Positions 37,701 through 46,051 of a stretch of DNA of 64,000 bases are shown here, one piece after another. The notes under the pieces are model-generated. The model saw only the letters and a program-made list of their open reading frames with translations, did not search any database and was not told the origin of the DNA. Where the stretch lies: positions 1 through 64,000 of the forward strand of contig CANLSF010000007.1 in NCBI GenBank assembly GCA_947493695.1, in the 5' to 3' direction. Every line of letters begins with the position of its first letter. Within the stretch, counting starts at the first letter, position 1. This stretch comes from an uncultured Kiloniellaceae bacterium (lineage in GTDB: Bacteria; Pseudomonadota; Alphaproteobacteria; Kiloniellales; Kiloniellaceae). The position numbers and the translations under genes were made by a program.

Positions 37701-38357
37701 TCAGTTGGTCTTCCTCCGACGCCGTCCTACCAGAGCGAACCCGGCCAAGCCCACTGCGAGGATCGCCAGCGTGCCCGGTTCCGAAACGGCCACAGCGCCG
37801 GGGGCCGCCGCGAACCGCAGATTGTCGATAAACAAAGAACCGCTGGCTGGAAGCCCGTCAAGCATAGAGAAGCGAATCTCGGTAAAGGGCGCCATATCGT
37901 CGAACAGCCCGAAGAGGCCATTTCGGCCTCCCATCACGTCTGCAATGCCGAAGACCTCACCAGAGCCCGAAATGGTCACCTCTATCGGGAACAAAATATT
38001 CCTAAAATCGGCGATGAACCCGACCACCGGCACCGGGAAGGTCCAGACCAGATCGGCCAGGTCAAAACGGCCGCCATGCACGGTGCCTCGATAGCGTGAG
38101 GCACTGATCCCGTTGTCAATCACCGGGGTAAATCCGGAGTTTACACCGACACGCCTTGAAACCACACCGCTCTCGAAAGTGATTGAAGTCTCGCCAAAAT
38201 TCGTCGTATCGAAAGTATCGAGGGTCACAGCCGCTCCACCGGCTGCGCTGTTAAACGCGTCCAGGTCGGTCACCGCTATGGGCGCCGCTTGCGCAGCACC
38301 TGCAGTCAGACCAAGAACCAGCAGCAGACCCGCCGTAAATGATTTGGTGTCTTTCAT
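37701..38357 (-). CDS. PEP-CTERM sorting-domain exported protein
   Basis: A 218-residue secreted protein. ATG 38357 has GAGGAG upstream and gives a signal peptide (FTAGLLLVLGLTAGAAQA). The mature part looks all-beta, with the segment AVTLDTFDTTNFGETSITFESGV. The C-terminus is the PEP-CTERM tripartite sorting signal: VSEPGTLAILAVGLAGFALVGRRRRKTN, i.e. SEPGT in place of PEP, then a hydrophobic helix and an Arg cluster (shown in part). The processing exosortase is not in this window. A conserved upstream element lies at 38553-38582. Confidence 0.88.
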   Translation of the reverse strand: MKDTKSFTAGLLLVLGLTAGAAQAAPIAVTDLDAFNSAAGGAAVTLDTFDTTNFGETSITFESGVVSRRVGVNSGFTPVIDNGISASRYRGTVHGGRFDLADLVWTFPVPVVGFIADFRNILFPIEVTISGSGEVFGIADVMGGRNGLFGLFDDMAPFTEIRFSMLDGLPASGSLFIDNLRFAAAPGAVAVSEPGTLAILAVGLAGFALVGRRRRKTN

Positions 38358-38552
38358 TTGTCGCTCCTCGCCGCCACTGCCGCAGCCCGCCTGATCCTTG
38401 ATCACGCGATGGCCGCCGAACAGTGGCTATGGTTAATCTGCCTCAAAGCCCATAGGAAGCCGGACGCCTGCGCATTGCTGCTCCACTGGGCCTGAGAACG
38501 CCGCCAGCAATAAAGGCAGCTTTGCCACCTGAGTTGAAGAGGACCGATGCAC

Positions 38553-38582
38553 TTTGTCCGAAACGCGGGCAATTTTGTCCAA
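38553..38582 (-). promoter_or_regulatory. Shared GGACAAA repeat element upstream of the first PEP-CTERM gene
   Basis: Reading leftward, the 18-mer TTGGACAAAATTGCCCGC (complement of 38565-38582) is followed by a second GGACAAA (38553-38559); the two GGACAAA boxes are 21 bp apart. The same arrangement, with the identical 18-mer, lies upstream of the PEP-CTERM gene at 40956 in the same orientation. The distance to the start codon is 195 bp here and 201 bp there. It is probably an activator or enhancer site. The 312-bp gap 38358-38669 shows nothing else I can support. Confidence 0.7.
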
Positions 38583-38669
38583 AACGCAGCATTACATGGT
38601 TAAAATCGAGCGCCGATTGCGGCAGAGTCAGCGGGCTAAATCGGCCGCTATGACGCCCCGTAAGCCTTA

Positions 38670-39320
38670 TCAGGCCCCCAGTTCCGCCAACAAATCGTCG
38701 GTCGTCACCTGACGGCAGTAGCCCTTGATGGTCTGCAGTGAGTTCTCATGGCGCGCCCGGGTGATCGAGGCGCAGGCGTCGGTGACCTGGGTCACCAGAT
38801 AACCCAGATCGCAGGCGTCGCGGATGGCGCTTTCCACGCAGTGATCCGTCCTCAGTCCGCAGATCACCAACTGCTTTACCCCGAGATTGCGCATGACATA
38901 ATCAATGTTGGTTGAGATGAAGACCGAGGACGAGGATTTCGGAAAGACCATCTCGTCTTCTTCGGGCGCAAGTTCATCGATGACCTTCGCGTCCCAGGAT
39001 CCTTTCGGCACGTTAAAGCCTGAGATCTTGTAGTCCAGACTGCGATCCCGCCCGTCCCGGGTCAGGCTTTCGATGGTGGTATAGAGCACTTCGACGGACG
39101 CAGTTCGACAGGCCGTCACCAACCGCTGCATGTTGGGGACGGCGACCTCTGCCAGCTGCCCAAAGTACTCCGCATAATCACGCGCGATCTCCGCATCGGG
39201 GCGCTCTTTGAATTCCCCGCCATCGCGCCGGGCGCAGAGGTTTTGGACATCGACGATCAGCAACGCAGAGTCTTCCGGTACCAACGCCAGCTCGCGGGTT
39301 AAATTCTTCTCAGCGGGCAT
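38670..39320 (-). CDS. Isochorismatase-family cysteine hydrolase
   Basis: A 216-residue cysteine hydrolase of the isochorismatase/nicotinamidase superfamily. The catalytic triad is visible: Asp in SALLIVDVQN, Lys in MVFPKSSSSVF, and Cys in VICGLRTDHCVESAIRDA. The substrate could be an amide such as N-carbamoyl compounds or a ureide; the sequence does not decide. It starts 25 bp after an EamA-type transporter gene on the same strand, so the transporter may move its substrate or product. Confidence 0.92.
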   Translation of the reverse strand: MPAEKNLTRELALVPEDSALLIVDVQNLCARRDGGEFKERPDAEIARDYAEYFGQLAEVAVPNMQRLVTACRTASVEVLYTTIESLTRDGRDRSLDYKISGFNVPKGSWDAKVIDELAPEEDEMVFPKSSSSVFISTNIDYVMRNLGVKQLVICGLRTDHCVESAIRDACDLGYLVTQVTDACASITRARHENSLQTIKGYCRQVTTDDLLAELGA

Positions 39321-39345
39321 AACACCTCCATCCTCTCGAACAAAT

Positions 39346-40278
39346 TCAGCGCCTTCCGCCGGGTCTCCAGCCTGCGGCCAGTAGAATACCGCCCGTCGCG
39401 AGGACCAGACCCGCCCAGGCGAACGCGCTCGGCCATTCGCCCAGCAGCGGGATCGCCAGCAAAGCCGCCATGCCCGGCACCATGGCCATCATGGCGGCAG
39501 TGGACGAGGTTCCGATGGAACGCACCGCCGTGGTAAAGCACAGGATCGCGATCACGCTGGGGCCCAGTCCCTGGAATAGCCCCTGCAGCAGAATTTCCGA
39601 CCAGGGTGCCGTGACGACGGCCCTGGGCAGAACCGTCAGATAAAAGGGCGCAAACCACAGCAGGTTGAGTATGGGAATGCAAACCATGGTTTGTACCGGC
39701 GTGAGATGCCAGGCCTTGGTGGCGATCAGGAAAAAAGCCACAAAAAGTGTTGCCGCCAGGAACATCAGATGTCCGATCCAGACATCCGACTCAACGCCGC
39801 CGGTGCCCCGGTCCCATCCGATCATCGCGCAGCCGCCCAGGATCACCATCATCCCGACGATGCGCCAGCTGTCAGGCCGGTCCTTCAGCCAGATCCATCC
39901 CAGGATCGCGGCGAAGATCGGCAGCGTACCGTTCATCATGATCCCGGCGTGCGAGGCCGGGGCATACTGAAATCCACCGAAAGCAAGCAGGAGATATGGC
40001 GTCCCCTGACCGCAGGCGACCAGCGCAATCTGCCACCAGCGCAACCGGCGCGGCCAGTAGCGCCAGACAAAAGGCGAGACGGCGATGGCGGCGACGACAA
40101 AGCGCAGAGCCATCATGTCGTAGATAGTCAGGGTCTGGACCACCCCGAAGCGCGACACCACCACCCAGCCGGACCAGATCAGGACGACGGTGAAGGCAGC
40201 CAGCCAGCCATAGAGCGGTTTGACAGGACTGGAGACAGGATGAACCGCAGGTGCCGCCGCCCCGCCGCCCTCAGACAT
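39346..40278 (-). CDS. DMT-superfamily EamA transporter
   Basis: A 310-residue inner-membrane protein with ten hydrophobic helices in two EamA repeats, for example VVLIWSGWVVVSRFGVVQTL in the first and GLGPSVIAILCFTTAVRSIG in the second. EamA carriers export amino acids, nucleosides or other metabolites. It lies between an ABM-domain gene (30 bp upstream) and the isochorismatase-family gene (25 bp downstream) on the same strand, apparently one operon. Confidence 0.92.
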   Translation of the reverse strand: MSEGGGAAAPAVHPVSSPVKPLYGWLAAFTVVLIWSGWVVVSRFGVVQTLTIYDMMALRFVVAAIAVSPFVWRYWPRRLRWWQIALVACGQGTPYLLLAFGGFQYAPASHAGIMMNGTLPIFAAILGWIWLKDRPDSWRIVGMMVILGGCAMIGWDRGTGGVESDVWIGHLMFLAATLFVAFFLIATKAWHLTPVQTMVCIPILNLLWFAPFYLTVLPRAVVTAPWSEILLQGLFQGLGPSVIAILCFTTAVRSIGTSSTAAMMAMVPGMAALLAIPLLGEWPSAFAWAGLVLATGGILLAAGWRPGGRR

Positions 40279-40308
40279 GAGAGCCGATTTCGAGAGCTCT
40301 GCCGGGTT

Positions 40309-40596
40309 TCACGCGGTCTTGCTCATTTCGTTGAGCTGGAACTCGGCGACCGCACCTTCGGTCGCGGCGCGGAAGACCTCCAGATGGGGCTGGTTCATAT
40401 GGACCTGCCAGAGATCCCGGTTCTCCCAGATTTCATAGAAAACGAAGAAACCCGGGTTCCCGTTGTCCCGGTGCAGATCGTACTGCACGCAGCCTTCCTC
40501 GGCACGGGTCGGCGCCACCAGCTTTTCCAGTTCCTTGTGAAGAAACTCTTCCTTGCCGGGCGCGGCGGTGATCTGGGCGAGAATAATCAGGGACAT
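40309..40596 (-). CDS. Putative quinol monooxygenase (ABM domain)
   Basis: A 95-residue antibiotic-biosynthesis-monooxygenase domain protein: LIILAQITAAPGKEEFLHKEL, GCVQYDLHRDNGNPGFFVFYEIW and HMNQPHLEVF are typical of the YgiN-like group. I started at ATG 40596, where homology begins; an in-frame ATG at 40671 adds an unrelated leader. It heads the leftward set with the EamA transporter and cysteine hydrolase genes. It is a second ABM protein in the window, not an obvious close copy of the first. Confidence 0.87.
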   Translation of the reverse strand: MSLIILAQITAAPGKEEFLHKELEKLVAPTRAEEGCVQYDLHRDNGNPGFFVFYEIWENRDLWQVHMNQPHLEVFRAATEGAVAEFQLNEMSKTA

Positions 40597-40724
40597 GCGA
40601 GACCATCCAGTTGAAGAGTGGATTGAAGAGCGGGGAGAGGCAAATATCGGACGAAGGTCTCCGCGATGCAAGCTCGGCGATTCACCTGAACGGCAATGCG
40701 TTTTCAGACAAGCGTTGTTCCAAA

Positions 40725-40754
40725 TTGGACAAAATTGCCCGCAGATTGGACAAA
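40725..40754 (+). promoter_or_regulatory. Shared GGACAAA repeat element upstream of the tandem PEP-CTERM genes
   Basis: TTGGACAAAATTGCCCGC (40725-40742) followed by a second GGACAAA (40748-40754), with 21 bp between the two boxes. It is the counterpart of the element at 38553-38582, located 201 bp before the start codon at 40956. The 359-bp gap 40597-40955 also contains the hairpin at 40910-40934. Confidence 0.7.
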
Positions 40755-40909
40755 CTGCCGTCCGGTCCTTCCCTTTTCATTCGCAGGCGGCCATAGATCA
40801 CCGCTGAAATGAGGAAGCCCGGTCTTGGTCGTGGAAATGCCCCGGCGCTGTTTCGGCGCGGCATAGCAGCGTTATGGGAGGCGGCTTTAATAAACTAATC
40901 CATTCGCCA

Positions 40910-40955: not shown

Positions 40956-41603
40956 ATGAAGATTTTTAAATCGGCGGCGGAACGTGGGGGCATGACCCTG
41001 CAGGCTTCTCTCGGAGCATTGCTGTTCGGCGGGCTGCTCACAGTCTATGCGCCAAGCGCGCAGGCGACACTGATCGGGCAGACGGTCGGCTGCTCCGCGT
41101 CAGGCGGCAGTGGCTCTATCAGTCACTTTTGCTCTGCCGAATCTGCCGTGGTTCAAAGCCCCGGAGCGGAATTCGACATTATTCGGGTCTTTCAACCCAT
41201 TCCAGAGATTAGGGATGAGACTCCGGTTTTTACGTTCGACATCGACGAGAACTCTATTCTCATCGAGTCGCTTTTACCTGGCTCGCAGACCCTCAACATT
41301 GCGCTCGACGTGTTTTTGTCCGATTTGTTCTGGCTCGGAAATCCGGACGCCATCATCACCGGTATCCTTCTCTCGGTGAACGGCGTAACGGGCTTTGACG
41401 AGACGAACATATCCTTTACTGACAATGCCATTGACGTTGCTCTCGGGGGCGGGACCCGATGGGCCCCAGGCTCGTCTGCCACCATCACACTCCTTACGGA
41501 AGACAGCAGCCCAACTCTGGCCGTGCCCGAGCCCGCAACACTGGCGCTCTTCGGTCTGGGGCTGGCCGGTCTTGGCTTCGTGCGGCGCCGAAAGTCCGAT
41601 TGA
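40956..41603 (+). CDS. PEP-CTERM exported protein, tandem copy 1
   Basis: A 215-residue exported protein. GGGAGACAGAAC precedes the ATG. The signal peptide region (LQASLGALLFGGLLTVYAPS) ends in AQA at about residue 37. The body shares ATLIGQTVGCSAS and a block of the form FWLGNPDAIITGILLSVNGV with the next gene. The C-terminus is VPEPATLALFGLGLAGLGFV plus RRRKSD, a textbook PEP-CTERM signal. Function of the mature protein is unknown. It and the following gene form a tandem paralogue pair. Confidence 0.9.
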   Translation: MKIFKSAAERGGMTLQASLGALLFGGLLTVYAPSAQATLIGQTVGCSASGGSGSISHFCSAESAVVQSPGAEFDIIRVFQPIPEIRDETPVFTFDIDENSILIESLLPGSQTLNIALDVFLSDLFWLGNPDAIITGILLSVNGVTGFDETNISFTDNAIDVALGGGTRWAPGSSATITLLTEDSSPTLAVPEPATLALFGLGLAGLGFVRRRKSD

Positions 41604-41672: not shown

Positions 41673-42338
41673 GTGACCCTTATCGAATCGGCATCAAGCG
41701 GGAACCTATTCTCCAGGATTTTACTCGCAACGCTCCTGCTGGGCGGGCTGTTCGCGGCTTTTGCCTCGAGCGCACAGGCAACCCTGATCGGGCAGACGGT
41801 CGGCTGCTCCGCCTCAAGTGATCTTGGCCCCTTGACCTGCTCCTCGGAGAACGCAGAGGTTCAAACCACAGGCCCTGAATTCGTCTTGAGCCAGGCAAGC
41901 GAGGGCTTTCCTGTTGACCTGACCTGGGACATCGACATCGAGGAGTCCTCGATTCAGATCAGCTACAGCTTCCAGGGCGTCACATCAATCAACGAGCCTC
42001 AGCTCGATGTCCTCCTATCCGACTTCTTCTGGCTCGGAAATCCGGACGCTGTGATCACCGGCTTCCTTCTCTCGGTGAGCGGCGTGACGGGCTTTGACGA
42101 GACAGACATAACTCTTTTTGATAATGCCATCGGATTTGATCTCGGGGGCGGCCCGGAATCCACAAGTTGGGTCGCAGGCTCTTCCGCCACCATCACTCTC
42201 ATCACCGAAGATAGAGCGAGCATATCCGTGCCCGAGCCCGCCACGCTGGCGCTCTTCGGGTTGGGACTGGCCGGATTTGGACTGGCACGTCGGGGCATTG
42301 CGCGGCGCCGAAGGACCGCAAGACCTTCAAGCCTTTGA
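41673..42338 (+). CDS. PEP-CTERM exported protein, tandem copy 2
   Basis: A 221-residue paralogue of the preceding protein, starting at GTG 41673 with AAGG upstream. The signal peptide (LLATLLLGGLFAAFASSAQA) is followed by the shared ATLIGQTVGCSAS, and the FWLGNPDAVITGFLLSVSGV block is nearly identical. The sorting signal VPEPATLALFGLGLAGFGLA is followed by a longer, duplicated-looking arginine tail (RRGIARRRRTARPSSL) than usual. It lies 69 bp after copy 1 and overlaps the convergent CGNR gene by 12 bp. Confidence 0.88.
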   Translation: MTLIESASSGNLFSRILLATLLLGGLFAAFASSAQATLIGQTVGCSASSDLGPLTCSSENAEVQTTGPEFVLSQASEGFPVDLTWDIDIEESSIQISYSFQGVTSINEPQLDVLLSDFFWLGNPDAVITGFLLSVSGVTGFDETDITLFDNAIGFDLGGGPESTSWVAGSSATITLITEDRASISVPEPATLALFGLGLAGFGLARRGIARRRRTARPSSL

Positions 42339-44048: not shown

Positions 44049-44067
44049 TCTTCTGTTCAGTCTGGAA

Positions 44068-44778
44068 TCAGGATCTGGTATCACGTCCTCTGCGTCGCGC
44101 CGCGAAGCCGAAGACAGCGAGCCCGACGGCAAAGAGCGGCAAGCCGGCTGGCGCAGGTACTGCGACCACTGCGGGAGCCTCGGTGAAATCGTAGGTCAGC
44201 GTCGCACTTCCCGAAAAGCTATTCTGCAACGCAATGCCCTCCACGCCCCCGGTCCCGGTTACGCGGGCGAAGGCAAAAAGCGGCAGGCTCACAGGTCCCG
44301 AAAGAAAATCCTCAAGCCGCAAAAGGTCGAGCAAATCCAGCTCGCGCTGATAGTCGCCGGCAATACGTCCGTTTCCGCCTGCCCCCAGTGCAAGTAACGG
44401 CGTAAATCTCGAGCCGACCGCACCGATAGAATTTATCGTGGAACGTGGAAACGCGTCGATAAGATTGATGGAGGAAATTGCGCCGACCTCGATACAGCCG
44501 GGAAGGTTCAACGGCAGCGGACCGGCACAACGGAGCGAAAAATCGGCAATCGCAATGCCTCCGACATTGATCGTCACCGCATTCAGGGTGCCCAGACTCT
44601 GGTCGAAGGAATTAAAATTCAGATCCGCCCGCAGAATCGCCGACGCCGGGGTCCCCGTCGTGTTGATGACAGAAGACTCGGCGAAATTCCGGGTTTGCGA
44701 GATAAGGGTGGCGTTGGCTGAAAGCGGTGCCGCGAGGAAGCCCGCAAGAGCGATAGTCAGAGGAAGCAGACGTTTCAT
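44068..44778 (-). CDS. PEP-CTERM-like (VPAPA variant) exported protein, tandem copy A
   Basis: A 236-residue exported protein. ATG 44778 has AGGGA upstream, and the signal peptide is LLPLTIALAGFLAAPLSANA. The mature part begins TLISQTRNFAESSVINTTGT and contains two cysteines (LRCAGPLPLNLPGC). The C-terminus VAVPAPAGLPLFAVGLAVFG followed by FAARRRGRD is a variant sorting signal intermediate between PEP-CTERM and VPLPA-CTERM. The protein is a close paralogue of the gene at 45084. Function unknown. Confidence 0.85.
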   Translation of the reverse strand: MKRLLPLTIALAGFLAAPLSANATLISQTRNFAESSVINTTGTPASAILRADLNFNSFDQSLGTLNAVTINVGGIAIADFSLRCAGPLPLNLPGCIEVGAISSINLIDAFPRSTINSIGAVGSRFTPLLALGAGGNGRIAGDYQRELDLLDLLRLEDFLSGPVSLPLFAFARVTGTGGVEGIALQNSFSGSATLTYDFTEAPAVVAVPAPAGLPLFAVGLAVFGFAARRRGRDTRS

Positions 44779-44975
44779 GACGATAATCCCTGTAAATATA
44801 ATCCGGCATGCCACCGATGTTCCGGCAGCCAGCTCAAAAATTTTAACTCGGCCCGGCTAATACAAAGGAAGTCTGCCGCGCTCTTCTCTAATAGATGTCG
44901 GGATTGCGGCCACGCGCACAATTCATCAAATGCGTATAGCCCTATACAAAAATGATGATACTCGTGCGGGTTGCG
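44779..44975 (-). repeat. Duplicated upstream region, copy A
   Basis: This 197-bp stretch matches 45807-46003 with only about six differences by eye (four next to the start codon, one each near 44880 and 44952), offset 1028 bp. It contains the dyad GTATAG-CC-CTATAC (44934-44947). It carries the promoter of copy A and shows that the gene and its control region were duplicated together. Confidence 0.85.
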
Positions 44976-45083
44976 TTGAATTGAGCAGATGTATTCGGAG
45001 GCAGAGCCAGAGAATACAGTTAAACGCGGCCTGCAATAGCATCGGTTTCTTCTGCTCAAATTGGAATCAGAATTTGGCTGATA

Positions 45084-45806
45084 TCAAAATGTGGATAGAC
45101 GTCCCCTGCGCCGCGCCGCGAAGCCGAACATTGCAAGCCCTGCGGCAAAAATCGCCAGAGTGGCAGGCGCTGGTACGGCGACCACAGCAGGCGCCGCAGT
45201 GAAGTCGTAGGTCAGTATCGCGCTTCCTGAAAAGCTGTTTCGCAACACGGTGCTTTCCACGGTTCTATCCAAGTCCCCGACACCGGTCACACGGGCGAAG
45301 GCAAAAAGTGGGAAGCGCACAGGTTCGGAGAGAAAGTCCTCCAACGGCACAAGTTCCAGCAAATCCAGCTCGCGCTGATAGTCGCCGGCAATGCGCCCGT
45401 TTCCACCCTCACCCAGCGGGAGGAGAGGCGTAAAACTTGAGCGGACCACACCAATAAAATTCAGTGGGGAACGTCGAGTCTGTTCGATAAAACTGACAGT
45501 GGAACTCGCGCCGACATCGAGACAGCCGGGAAAGTTTCGCGGCAACGGTCCGGCACAACGGAGTGAAAAAGTAGCAGTCGCGATGCCTGTGACATTGATC
45601 GTCACCGCATTCAGAGTGCCCAGACTCTGGTCGAAAGGATTAAAATTCAGGTCCGCTCGCAGAATCGCCGACGCTGGGGTCCCCGTCGTGTTGATGACAG
45701 AAGACTCGGCGAAATTCCGGGTTTGCGAGATAAGGGTGGCGTTGGCTGAAAGTGGCGCCACGAGGAAACCCGCGAGAGCGATGCCGAGCGGAAGCAGGCG
45801 TTTCAT
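45084..45806 (-). CDS. PEP-CTERM-like (VPAPA variant) exported protein, tandem copy B
   Basis: A 240-residue paralogue of copy A. The signal peptide (LLPLGIALAGFLVAPLSANA) and the first 60 mature residues are nearly identical; the middle part diverges (SFIEQTRRSPLNFIGVVRSS in place of SNLIDAF-type sequence), and it has a few extra residues near VGDLDRTVESTV. The sorting signal is VAVPAPATLAIFAAGLAMFG followed by FAARRRGRLSTF. It has its own copy of the 197-bp upstream region. Function unknown. Confidence 0.85.
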   Translation of the reverse strand: MKRLLPLGIALAGFLVAPLSANATLISQTRNFAESSVINTTGTPASAILRADLNFNPFDQSLGTLNAVTINVTGIATATFSLRCAGPLPRNFPGCLDVGASSTVSFIEQTRRSPLNFIGVVRSSFTPLLPLGEGGNGRIAGDYQRELDLLELVPLEDFLSEPVRFPLFAFARVTGVGDLDRTVESTVLRNSFSGSAILTYDFTAAPAVVAVPAPATLAIFAAGLAMFGFAARRRGRLSTF

Positions 45807-46003
45807 GGTGACAATCCCTGTAAATATAATCCGGCATGCCACCGATGTTCCGGCAGCCAGCTCAAAAATTTTAACTCGGCCCGGCTAATACAAAGGAAGT
45901 CTGCCGAGCTCTTCTCTAATAGATGTCGGGATTGCGGCCACGCGCACAATTCATCAAATGCGTATAGCCCTATACAAAAATAATGATACTCGTGCGGGTT
46001 GCG
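45807..46003 (-). repeat. Duplicated upstream region, copy B
   Basis: Near-identical partner of 44779-44975. The dyad GTATAG-CC-CTATAC is at 45962-45975. Similarity ends abruptly after GCGGGTTGCG, which marks one edge of the duplicated unit. Confidence 0.85.
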
Positions 46004-46051
46004 ATCAATCGGGTGGGTGTATCGAAACCACCCATGTTGTCGCAAAGGGGT

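Follow-up and report, generated by a model that had tools for sequence, protein, structure and literature searches.

The 64,000-nucleotide window analysed here, from an uncultured Kiloniellaceae bacterium (GenBank assembly GCA_947493695.1, contig CANLSF010000007.1, positions 1 to 64,000), carries two copies of a tandem DNA element, GGACAAA-N14-GGACAAA, each upstream of a gene for a PEP-CTERM protein. From sequence comparison, we consider it highly probable that this element is the activator half of a promoter, bound by a membrane 7TMR-DISM protein of the AraC family that switches on a small set of genes, most of them for exported surface proteins. A membrane protein of the AraC family is very probably the regulator, and its genetic linkage to the element, their co-occurrence among genomes and the geometry of the operator all point to a direct binding of one by the other.

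As the original prediction had stated, the 18-mer TTGGACAAAATTGCCCGC occurs exactly twice in the window, at 38565-38582 (-) and 40725-40742 (+), against 0.06 occurrences expected in shuffled sequence, and no third match is found in the 64,000 nucleotides at up to 3 mismatches. The second GGACAAA lies 21 bp after the first, giving an exact two-box operator at 38553-38580 on the minus strand (copy 1; box 1 38580-38574, box 2 38559-38553; profile E 1.7e-14) and another at 40727-40754 on the plus strand (copy 2; box 1 40727-40733, box 2 40748-40754; profile E 1.3e-16), both sites being part of the training set of the profile described below. Copies 1 and 2 are separated from the ATGs at 38357 and 40956 by 195 and 201 bp, respectively, with the distances and orientations that had been given, and both downstream genes do encode PEP-CTERM proteins, of 218 amino acids (37701..38357, -; start picked by a heuristic) and 215 amino acids (40956..41603, +; TIGR02595 above cut-off), whose PF07589 ends score 28.0 and 39.5 bits, above the curated cut-off. 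The BLASTP alignment of the two proteins is limited to their last 30 residues, which are the sorting signal, so the description of this pair as not close relatives holds.

The random scatter that the original prediction had named as the result that would speak against it is not what a genome-wide scan finds, since the exact pair occurs eight times in the 6.46-Mb genome and the reversed pattern used as a control never does; one further copy with 1 mismatch stands before a PEP-CTERM gene. The four genomes of the genus contain 8, 9, 10 and 9 exact sites (control 0 in each), and among the other 57 of the 61 genomes of the order two have one exact match each, with controls there of 0 to 5. Isolated exact matches in genomes G010 and G020 were dropped as chance, with matrix scores of -5.1 and -29.2. 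A sample of 385 genomes of the class, which includes the present one (G000) and its relative G038, holds 15 others with a match, each with two at most. The bare two-box pattern at up to 2 mismatches is noise (59 matches vs 55 for the control in this genome); when the internal consensus is added, a search at up to 3 mismatches returns 10, 10, 11 and 11 matches in the genus genomes and none for the control in each.

A 65-column profile of the whole module returns 41 sites for the four genus genomes at E<=1.6e-7, ten of them in the present genome, and in a sister genus three genomes have a single site apiece (E 1.4e-6, 1.5e-9 and 7.4e-9), while the best match in the other 16 of the 23 genomes of the family has an E of 0.011, none of them above noise. 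A weaker match in G038 (C5:359088, E 0.001) was left out of the 41. The weight matrix for genome scoring was built from 37 genus sites, and 38 sequences, from the genus and from G052 and G054, went into the profile and match it by construction; in neither are the sites G000:C3:618507, G036:C12:180412, G037:C2:113021, G038:C10:94750 and that of G050. The three sister-genus sites, absent from the 37-site matrix, score 28.6-34.0, and the next best matches -19.8 or lower. Across the genome sets searched, the element occurs in a single family only.

The 18-mer lies at the core of a module of about 70 bp. Its two boxes, 21 bp apart, are followed at fixed spacing by a block that resembles a -35 element and, more weakly, by a TG and a -10-like hexamer. 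Counted from the first G of box 1 as index 0, the consensus reads TGnTnCATWTT-GGACAAA-ATTGCsCgCRTWTT-GGACAAA-aTGC-N8-CCTTCAAAT, with TG at 62-63 and the -10-like hexamer at 66-71. Logos were drawn from 37 genus sites and, in weighted form, from 44 sites (21.9 effective). T is found at index 42 in 37 of 37 genus sites and at index 48 in 36 of 37; among the positions sampled, the block near index 41-43 is the most similar to TTGACA (mean of 3.41 matches vs 1.9-2.9) and index 65-67 the most similar to TATAAT (3.14 vs 1.4-2.5), and a TG occurs at index 61-64 in 24 of 44 sites vs 0-9 elsewhere. For copy 1 of the window, the predicted -35-like block, assigned by column conservation and by TTGACA-likeness along the positions, is CTTCAACT at 38532..38539 (-; index 41-48), and TG plus a -10-like TTTATT would lie at 38509..38518 (-; index 62-71), with a predicted start near 38502. 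For copy 2, the corresponding -35-like block would be CTTCCCTT at 40768..40775 (+; index 41-48), followed by ATAGAT as a weak -10-like hexamer at 40793..40798 (+; index 66-71), the weakest part of the core-promoter reading, and by a predicted start near 40805. The CTTCAATT block was also considered as the -10 element and dropped, as a wider alignment shows the TG and -10-like block some 24 bp further downstream.

The element reads as an activator site joined to a sigma-70-type core promoter, which is not strong by consensus. Beyond the module the sites share no DNA, gene copies and orthologues excepted, and the ATG follows box 2 at anything between about 70 bp and more than 200 bp, depending on the member, while the module itself stays rigid. 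A variable distance to the ATG together with a constant spacing to the core argues for a promoter with 5′ leaders of differing length, and on this ground a remote enhancer was ruled out. An enhancer or activator site for a PEP-CTERM regulon, about 200 bp upstream of the genes, had originally been proposed, of which the regulon element stands and the enhancer at 200 bp does not, given that the distance falls to about 70 bp.

Bacteria with exosortases can carry dozens of PEP-CTERM surface proteins, and the present genome has 44 PF07589 places, 42 of them above the cut-off and three of them fragments (36, 45 and 71 amino acids). A weight-matrix scan of all 44 upstream regions, with gene starts set by heuristic, is bimodal: six regions score 39-51 bits and the other 38 less than 10 (shuffle maximum 7.1 in 220), the 9-site matrix used here including the six site genes that it recovers. 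Conversely, six of the ten sites in this genome, and 26 of the 41 in the genus, stand directly before PF07589 genes, which agrees with the element as a mark of a PEP-CTERM regulon. These direct targets have a PEP-CTERM C-terminus (PEP, hydrophobic helix and basic cluster), with PF07589 in 6/6 here, all above the cut-off, and in the 20/20 tested in relatives. The chance that six of ten sites fall in a set of 44 genes is of the order of 1e-11 by a hand calculation that assumes about 5,900 genes and serves for scale only; two of the six target genes are neighbouring copies.

Other genes are also found downstream of the element. Three orthologous sites precede a protein with SulP, STAS and cyclic-nucleotide domains (Pfam scan of the copy in the present genome), and three precede a conserved frame of 80 amino acids, which is unbroken across three genomes and whose copy here (C6:441826-442065, +) has no Pfam match. 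Two genus sites precede a gene of 346 amino acids followed by a PEP-CTERM-like gene, and in G036 the genes that follow sites include one for an Exo_endo_phos protein and one for a Peptidase_C58 protein. Among the 41, those without a clear target are C7:168789 and C3:618507 in this genome, the latter with a frame of 102 amino acids 297 bp downstream, and C7:16041, C8:159177 and C12:180412 in G036. The module at C7:168789 faces some 250 bp without a convincing gene (C7:168538-168816, -), which end in a terminator-like hairpin of 11 pairs with a T run. A stretch of this kind, with so strong a hairpin at its end, suggests a short untranslated transcript, a candidate small RNA of about 200 nucleotides; Rfam gives no match in the three site stretches searched, which include this candidate and the stretch of the 80-residue frame.

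Direct repeats of 21 bp are typical of AraC-type activators such as AraC and XylS, and repeats two helical turns apart beside a -35 element suggest an activator of this type. The geometry found here is that of an AraC/XylS-type tandem operator, with 21-bp repeats and, 14 bp after box 2, the predicted -35-like block. The regulator, left open originally, has now a strong candidate on the basis of domains, co-occurrence and linkage: a protein of 598 amino acids encoded outside the window, at C7:170465-172261, 1.65 kb from the site C7:168789. It contains, above the Pfam cut-offs, a 7TMR-DISMED2 domain (PF07696, 44.3 bits), a 7TMR-DISM_7TM domain (PF07695, 42.2 bits) and a C-terminal AraC helix-turn-helix (HTH) region (PF12833, HTH_18, 64.4 bits; PF00165, HTH_AraC, 33.1 bits). 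A structure model built with ten homologues (mean predicted local distance difference test score, pLDDT, of 74.1) has a beta domain at residues 67-201, seven helices, the last reaching residue 476, and an HTH bundle at 487-593. A paralogue (C4:321192-322901) and a PEP-CTERM gene are divergent, and a site lies in the interval that separates them.

Homologues of the regulator occur in 7 of the 61 genomes of the order, which are exactly the 7 of the 23 family genomes that have the site at E<=1.4e-6 (p = 1/245157 in a Fisher test by hand, for genomes that are not independent of one another). Within the sister genus (g5), three genomes have both site and regulator and five have neither. In the sample of 385 genomes of the class, a regulator at E<=1e-30 was found, with at most 3 candidates scored per genome, only in the two genus genomes included. 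Every one of the ten intact regulator genes has a site nearby, at distances between some 70 bp and 2.7 kb. In the three sister-genus genomes the site is about 70 bp upstream of the gene, and two of the three sites face an RTX-repeat protein; in G036 the site is about 110 bp away, and the longest frame of the gene would overlap it; and the paralogue, in three genomes, has its site at about 0.3-0.5 kb. The HTH residues KTLGRRLK and GHF[AS]K are kept in 10/10 regulators, and the HTH helices are almost invariant. Not counted among the ten is a broken copy (G036:C3:96537-97051), truncated and with one TAA, which has a weak, degraded site (score 8.2) about 0.2 kb away.

According to the mechanism that we propose, the two direct repeats (unit ~CATWTTGGACAAAATTGC, 21 bp or two helical turns apart) would hold the two subunits of an AraC-family dimer side by side on one face of the DNA, directly upstream of a putative sigma-70-type core promoter with its -35-like element 14 bp and its -10-like element 38 bp after box 2. 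The activator would be the product of C7:170465-172261, its paralogue C4:321192-322901, or both, with a predicted layout of periplasmic 7TMR-DISMED2 domain, seven membrane helices, long helical linker and cytoplasmic AraC HTH. A periplasmic or cell-surface signal would turn on the anchored HTH, which would then activate a subset of the PEP-CTERM genes, the SulP/STAS/cyclic-nucleotide transporter and the conserved protein of 80 amino acids.

Several observations weigh against this mechanism. Of the 41 genus sites, fifteen have no PEP-CTERM gene directly downstream, and in G036 only five of ten have one. The main copy of the regulator is not adjacent to a site in three genomes, where the nearest one lies 1.65-2.7 kb away; the genomes of the genus are not independent of each other, and co-occurrence in the sister genus is nearly the same fact as adjacency. 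The profile and the logos come from sites picked for near-exact boxes, so the box columns are conserved by selection of the sites, and the profile search scored 150 first-look candidates per genome. As for the core promoter, at least 4 matches to TTGACA occur in 19 of 44 sites and at least 4 to TATAAT in 12 of 44, many members, copy 2 of the window among them, have only a weak -10-like block, and a consensus scan around C7:168789 gives no sigma-70-type promoter at its thresholds.

One alternative comes from the control of PEP-CTERM genes already described. Haft et al. 2006 (PMC1569441) reported that 99 of 167 proteobacterial PEP-CTERM genes have a sigma-54 cis element upstream, with a 17-nucleotide motif 1 that ends in TTTACA and lies 32-92 nucleotides before motif 2, and in Aquincola RpoN control was reported for one PEP-CTERM gene, pepA (PMC9850573). 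The present genome encodes PrsR, PrsK and PrsT together (C1:1083-1092 kb, above NCBIfam cut-offs), and the element could in principle be the activator site of PrsR, as a variant of motif 1. However, a -24/-12 match (up to 2 mismatches, 350 bp upstream; the searches used a -24(GG)/-12(GC) consensus and, from the Haft motif, the TTTACA end) is found in none of the six site genes, in keeping with the doubt expressed earlier about a sigma-54 promoter at the two window genes, and in 11 of the 38 other PEP-CTERM genes (1.5% in shuffles). TTTACA, often as TGTCGA-N5-TTTACA in the -24/-12 genes, follows the same division, with 0/6 site genes, 9/11 genes with the sigma-54 motif and 5/27 others, and none of those 11 genes has the two-box operator. 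Operator and sigma-54 motifs mark non-overlapping sets of PEP-CTERM genes, 6/44 and 11/44, and the upstream regions of the remaining 27/44 have neither at these thresholds. Moreover, no operator-like site is present around prsR (C1:1079500-1099400, best matrix score -17.6), and the confinement of the element to a single family also speaks against a PrsR site, which we regard as highly improbable.

Another possibility, for which we see a very small chance, is that box 2 would be the -35 of an extracytoplasmic function (ECF) sigma promoter, with the CTT block as its -10 and box 1 as an incidental neighbour, because GGACAAA followed by CTTC at a fixed step of 20 bp resembles the spacing of ECF promoters. 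A single box should then suffice, but box 2 plus CTTnnnnTT at up to 1 mismatch gives 19-42 matches per genome vs 25-45 for the control, just 4 of the 17 exact matches are without box 1, and in the absence of box 1 the combination does not rise above the control level, which makes the pair of boxes the unit. In addition, the three sister-genus sites keep box 1 intact with a changed box 2, and conservation runs on to index 71, with the TG and the -10-like block. It is also conceivable, albeit unlikely, that the tandem operator is real and belongs to another regulator, the 7TMR-DISM-AraC gene being a mere neighbour or target: seven of the ten regulator genes have their site upstream and on the opposite strand, as would also be seen beside an autoregulated or co-regulated gene, and no site points toward the regulator gene at promoter distance. 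Yet gene and site agree in 23/23 family genomes, and in the sister genus the site is present only where the regulator is. Other regulators stand beside single sites, as judged by eye and not systematically (a response-regulator-like frame at C3:618507; LysR-, TetR- and GntR-like ones in relatives), and they do not recur, with the exception of a LysR-like gene beside the small-frame site in G037 and G038. Finally, the two window copies stand in inverted orientation on either side of a 2.1-kb block, and the clusters on C7 of the present genome and C12 of G036 contain tandem gene copies, as if the repeats were the ends of a mobile or duplicated segment or had been copied along with genes. That the sites precede unrelated genes on different contigs is strongly against such an origin, and the intervening genes of the window encode an isochorismatase, an EamA transporter and an ABM protein, with only the module shared beyond copies and orthologues; we give this explanation practically no weight.

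The operator read by a membrane AraC-type receptor resembles the PrsK-PrsR-sigma-54 system in that promoter elements are placed before many scattered PEP-CTERM genes of one genome, and it differs in the lack of -24/-12 and TTTACA elements, in the genes concerned, in its restriction to one family and in having a predicted one-component membrane AraC regulator in place of a two-component enhancer-binding protein. It shares with the AraC/XylS activators the 21-bp direct repeats upstream of a putative -35-like block and the AraC-type HTH of the candidate, although these activators are soluble ligand-binding proteins, in contrast to the predicted membrane protein with a 7TMR-DISM sensor and a regulon made mostly of surface proteins. 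With the 7TMR-DISM receptors (PF07695/PF07696) the candidate shares the periplasmic DISMED2 domain and the seven-helix core; it differs in its output domain, a DNA-binding AraC HTH, so that a single protein would provide an unusual path from surface sensing to transcription. Its HTH region also has a weak match to TIGR04094 (YSIRK-targeted surface antigen transcriptional regulator; 22.4 bits vs a cut-off of 200), a family named for sorted surface proteins to which it does not belong, and the likeness is an analogy only. In the open-licence literature, we found, among the matches listed, no 7TMR-DISM AraC regulator of this kind and no AraC-controlled set of PEP-CTERM genes.

PrsK/PrsR with sigma-54 is the only control of PEP-CTERM genes described in the portions of the literature covered here, and Haft et al. 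2006 (PMC1569441) foresaw that further motifs and regulators were still to be found. The element looks like one of these motifs, together with its regulator, and adds a second PEP-CTERM motif, a clean gene list and a regulator candidate that can be named. Switching of subsets of surface proteins becomes testable, for example in Denitrobaculum tricleocarpae, whose genome has both sites and regulator (9 exact sites and two intact regulator genes). On balance, we lean towards a second, sigma-54-independent control of PEP-CTERM genes, where an AraC-type receptor with seven transmembrane helices would sense the envelope or matrix and, still anchored in the membrane, turn on its own set of exosortase-dependent surface proteins, in parallel to PrsK/PrsR of the same cell. 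Because the sister genus has this receptor and operator beside RTX-repeat proteins instead, the two together would form a portable “surface coat” switch.

Further features of the window and of related genomes deserve a brief description. The isochorismatase, EamA and ABM genes between the two window copies (38670..40599, -) were not counted as targets, both copies pointing away from them. A second PEP-CTERM gene without its own operator (41673..42338, +) starts 69 bp after the 40956..41603 gene on the same strand, and is probably co-transcribed with it. In two genomes of the sister genus (L160 2266-7998 and L161 3-3908), the receptor gene and the operator are divergent from genes for long RTX-repeat proteins (PF00353), not PEP-CTERM ones, with frames of 1911 and 1302 amino acids that reach the end of the available stretch. 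Adjoining prsT/prsK/prsR in the present genome, three tandem PEP-CTERM paralogues (C1:1094324-1097657) have -24/-12 elements at 0-1 mismatch and TTTACA boxes. Within the window, positions 44062-46045 comprise a tandem duplication of about 1 kb, with 76-78% identity over two long stretches, and the two PEP-CTERM paralogues that it carries contain choice-of-anchor E domains; both have an upstream TTTACA but lack the two-box operator and any sigma-54 match at up to 2 mismatches.

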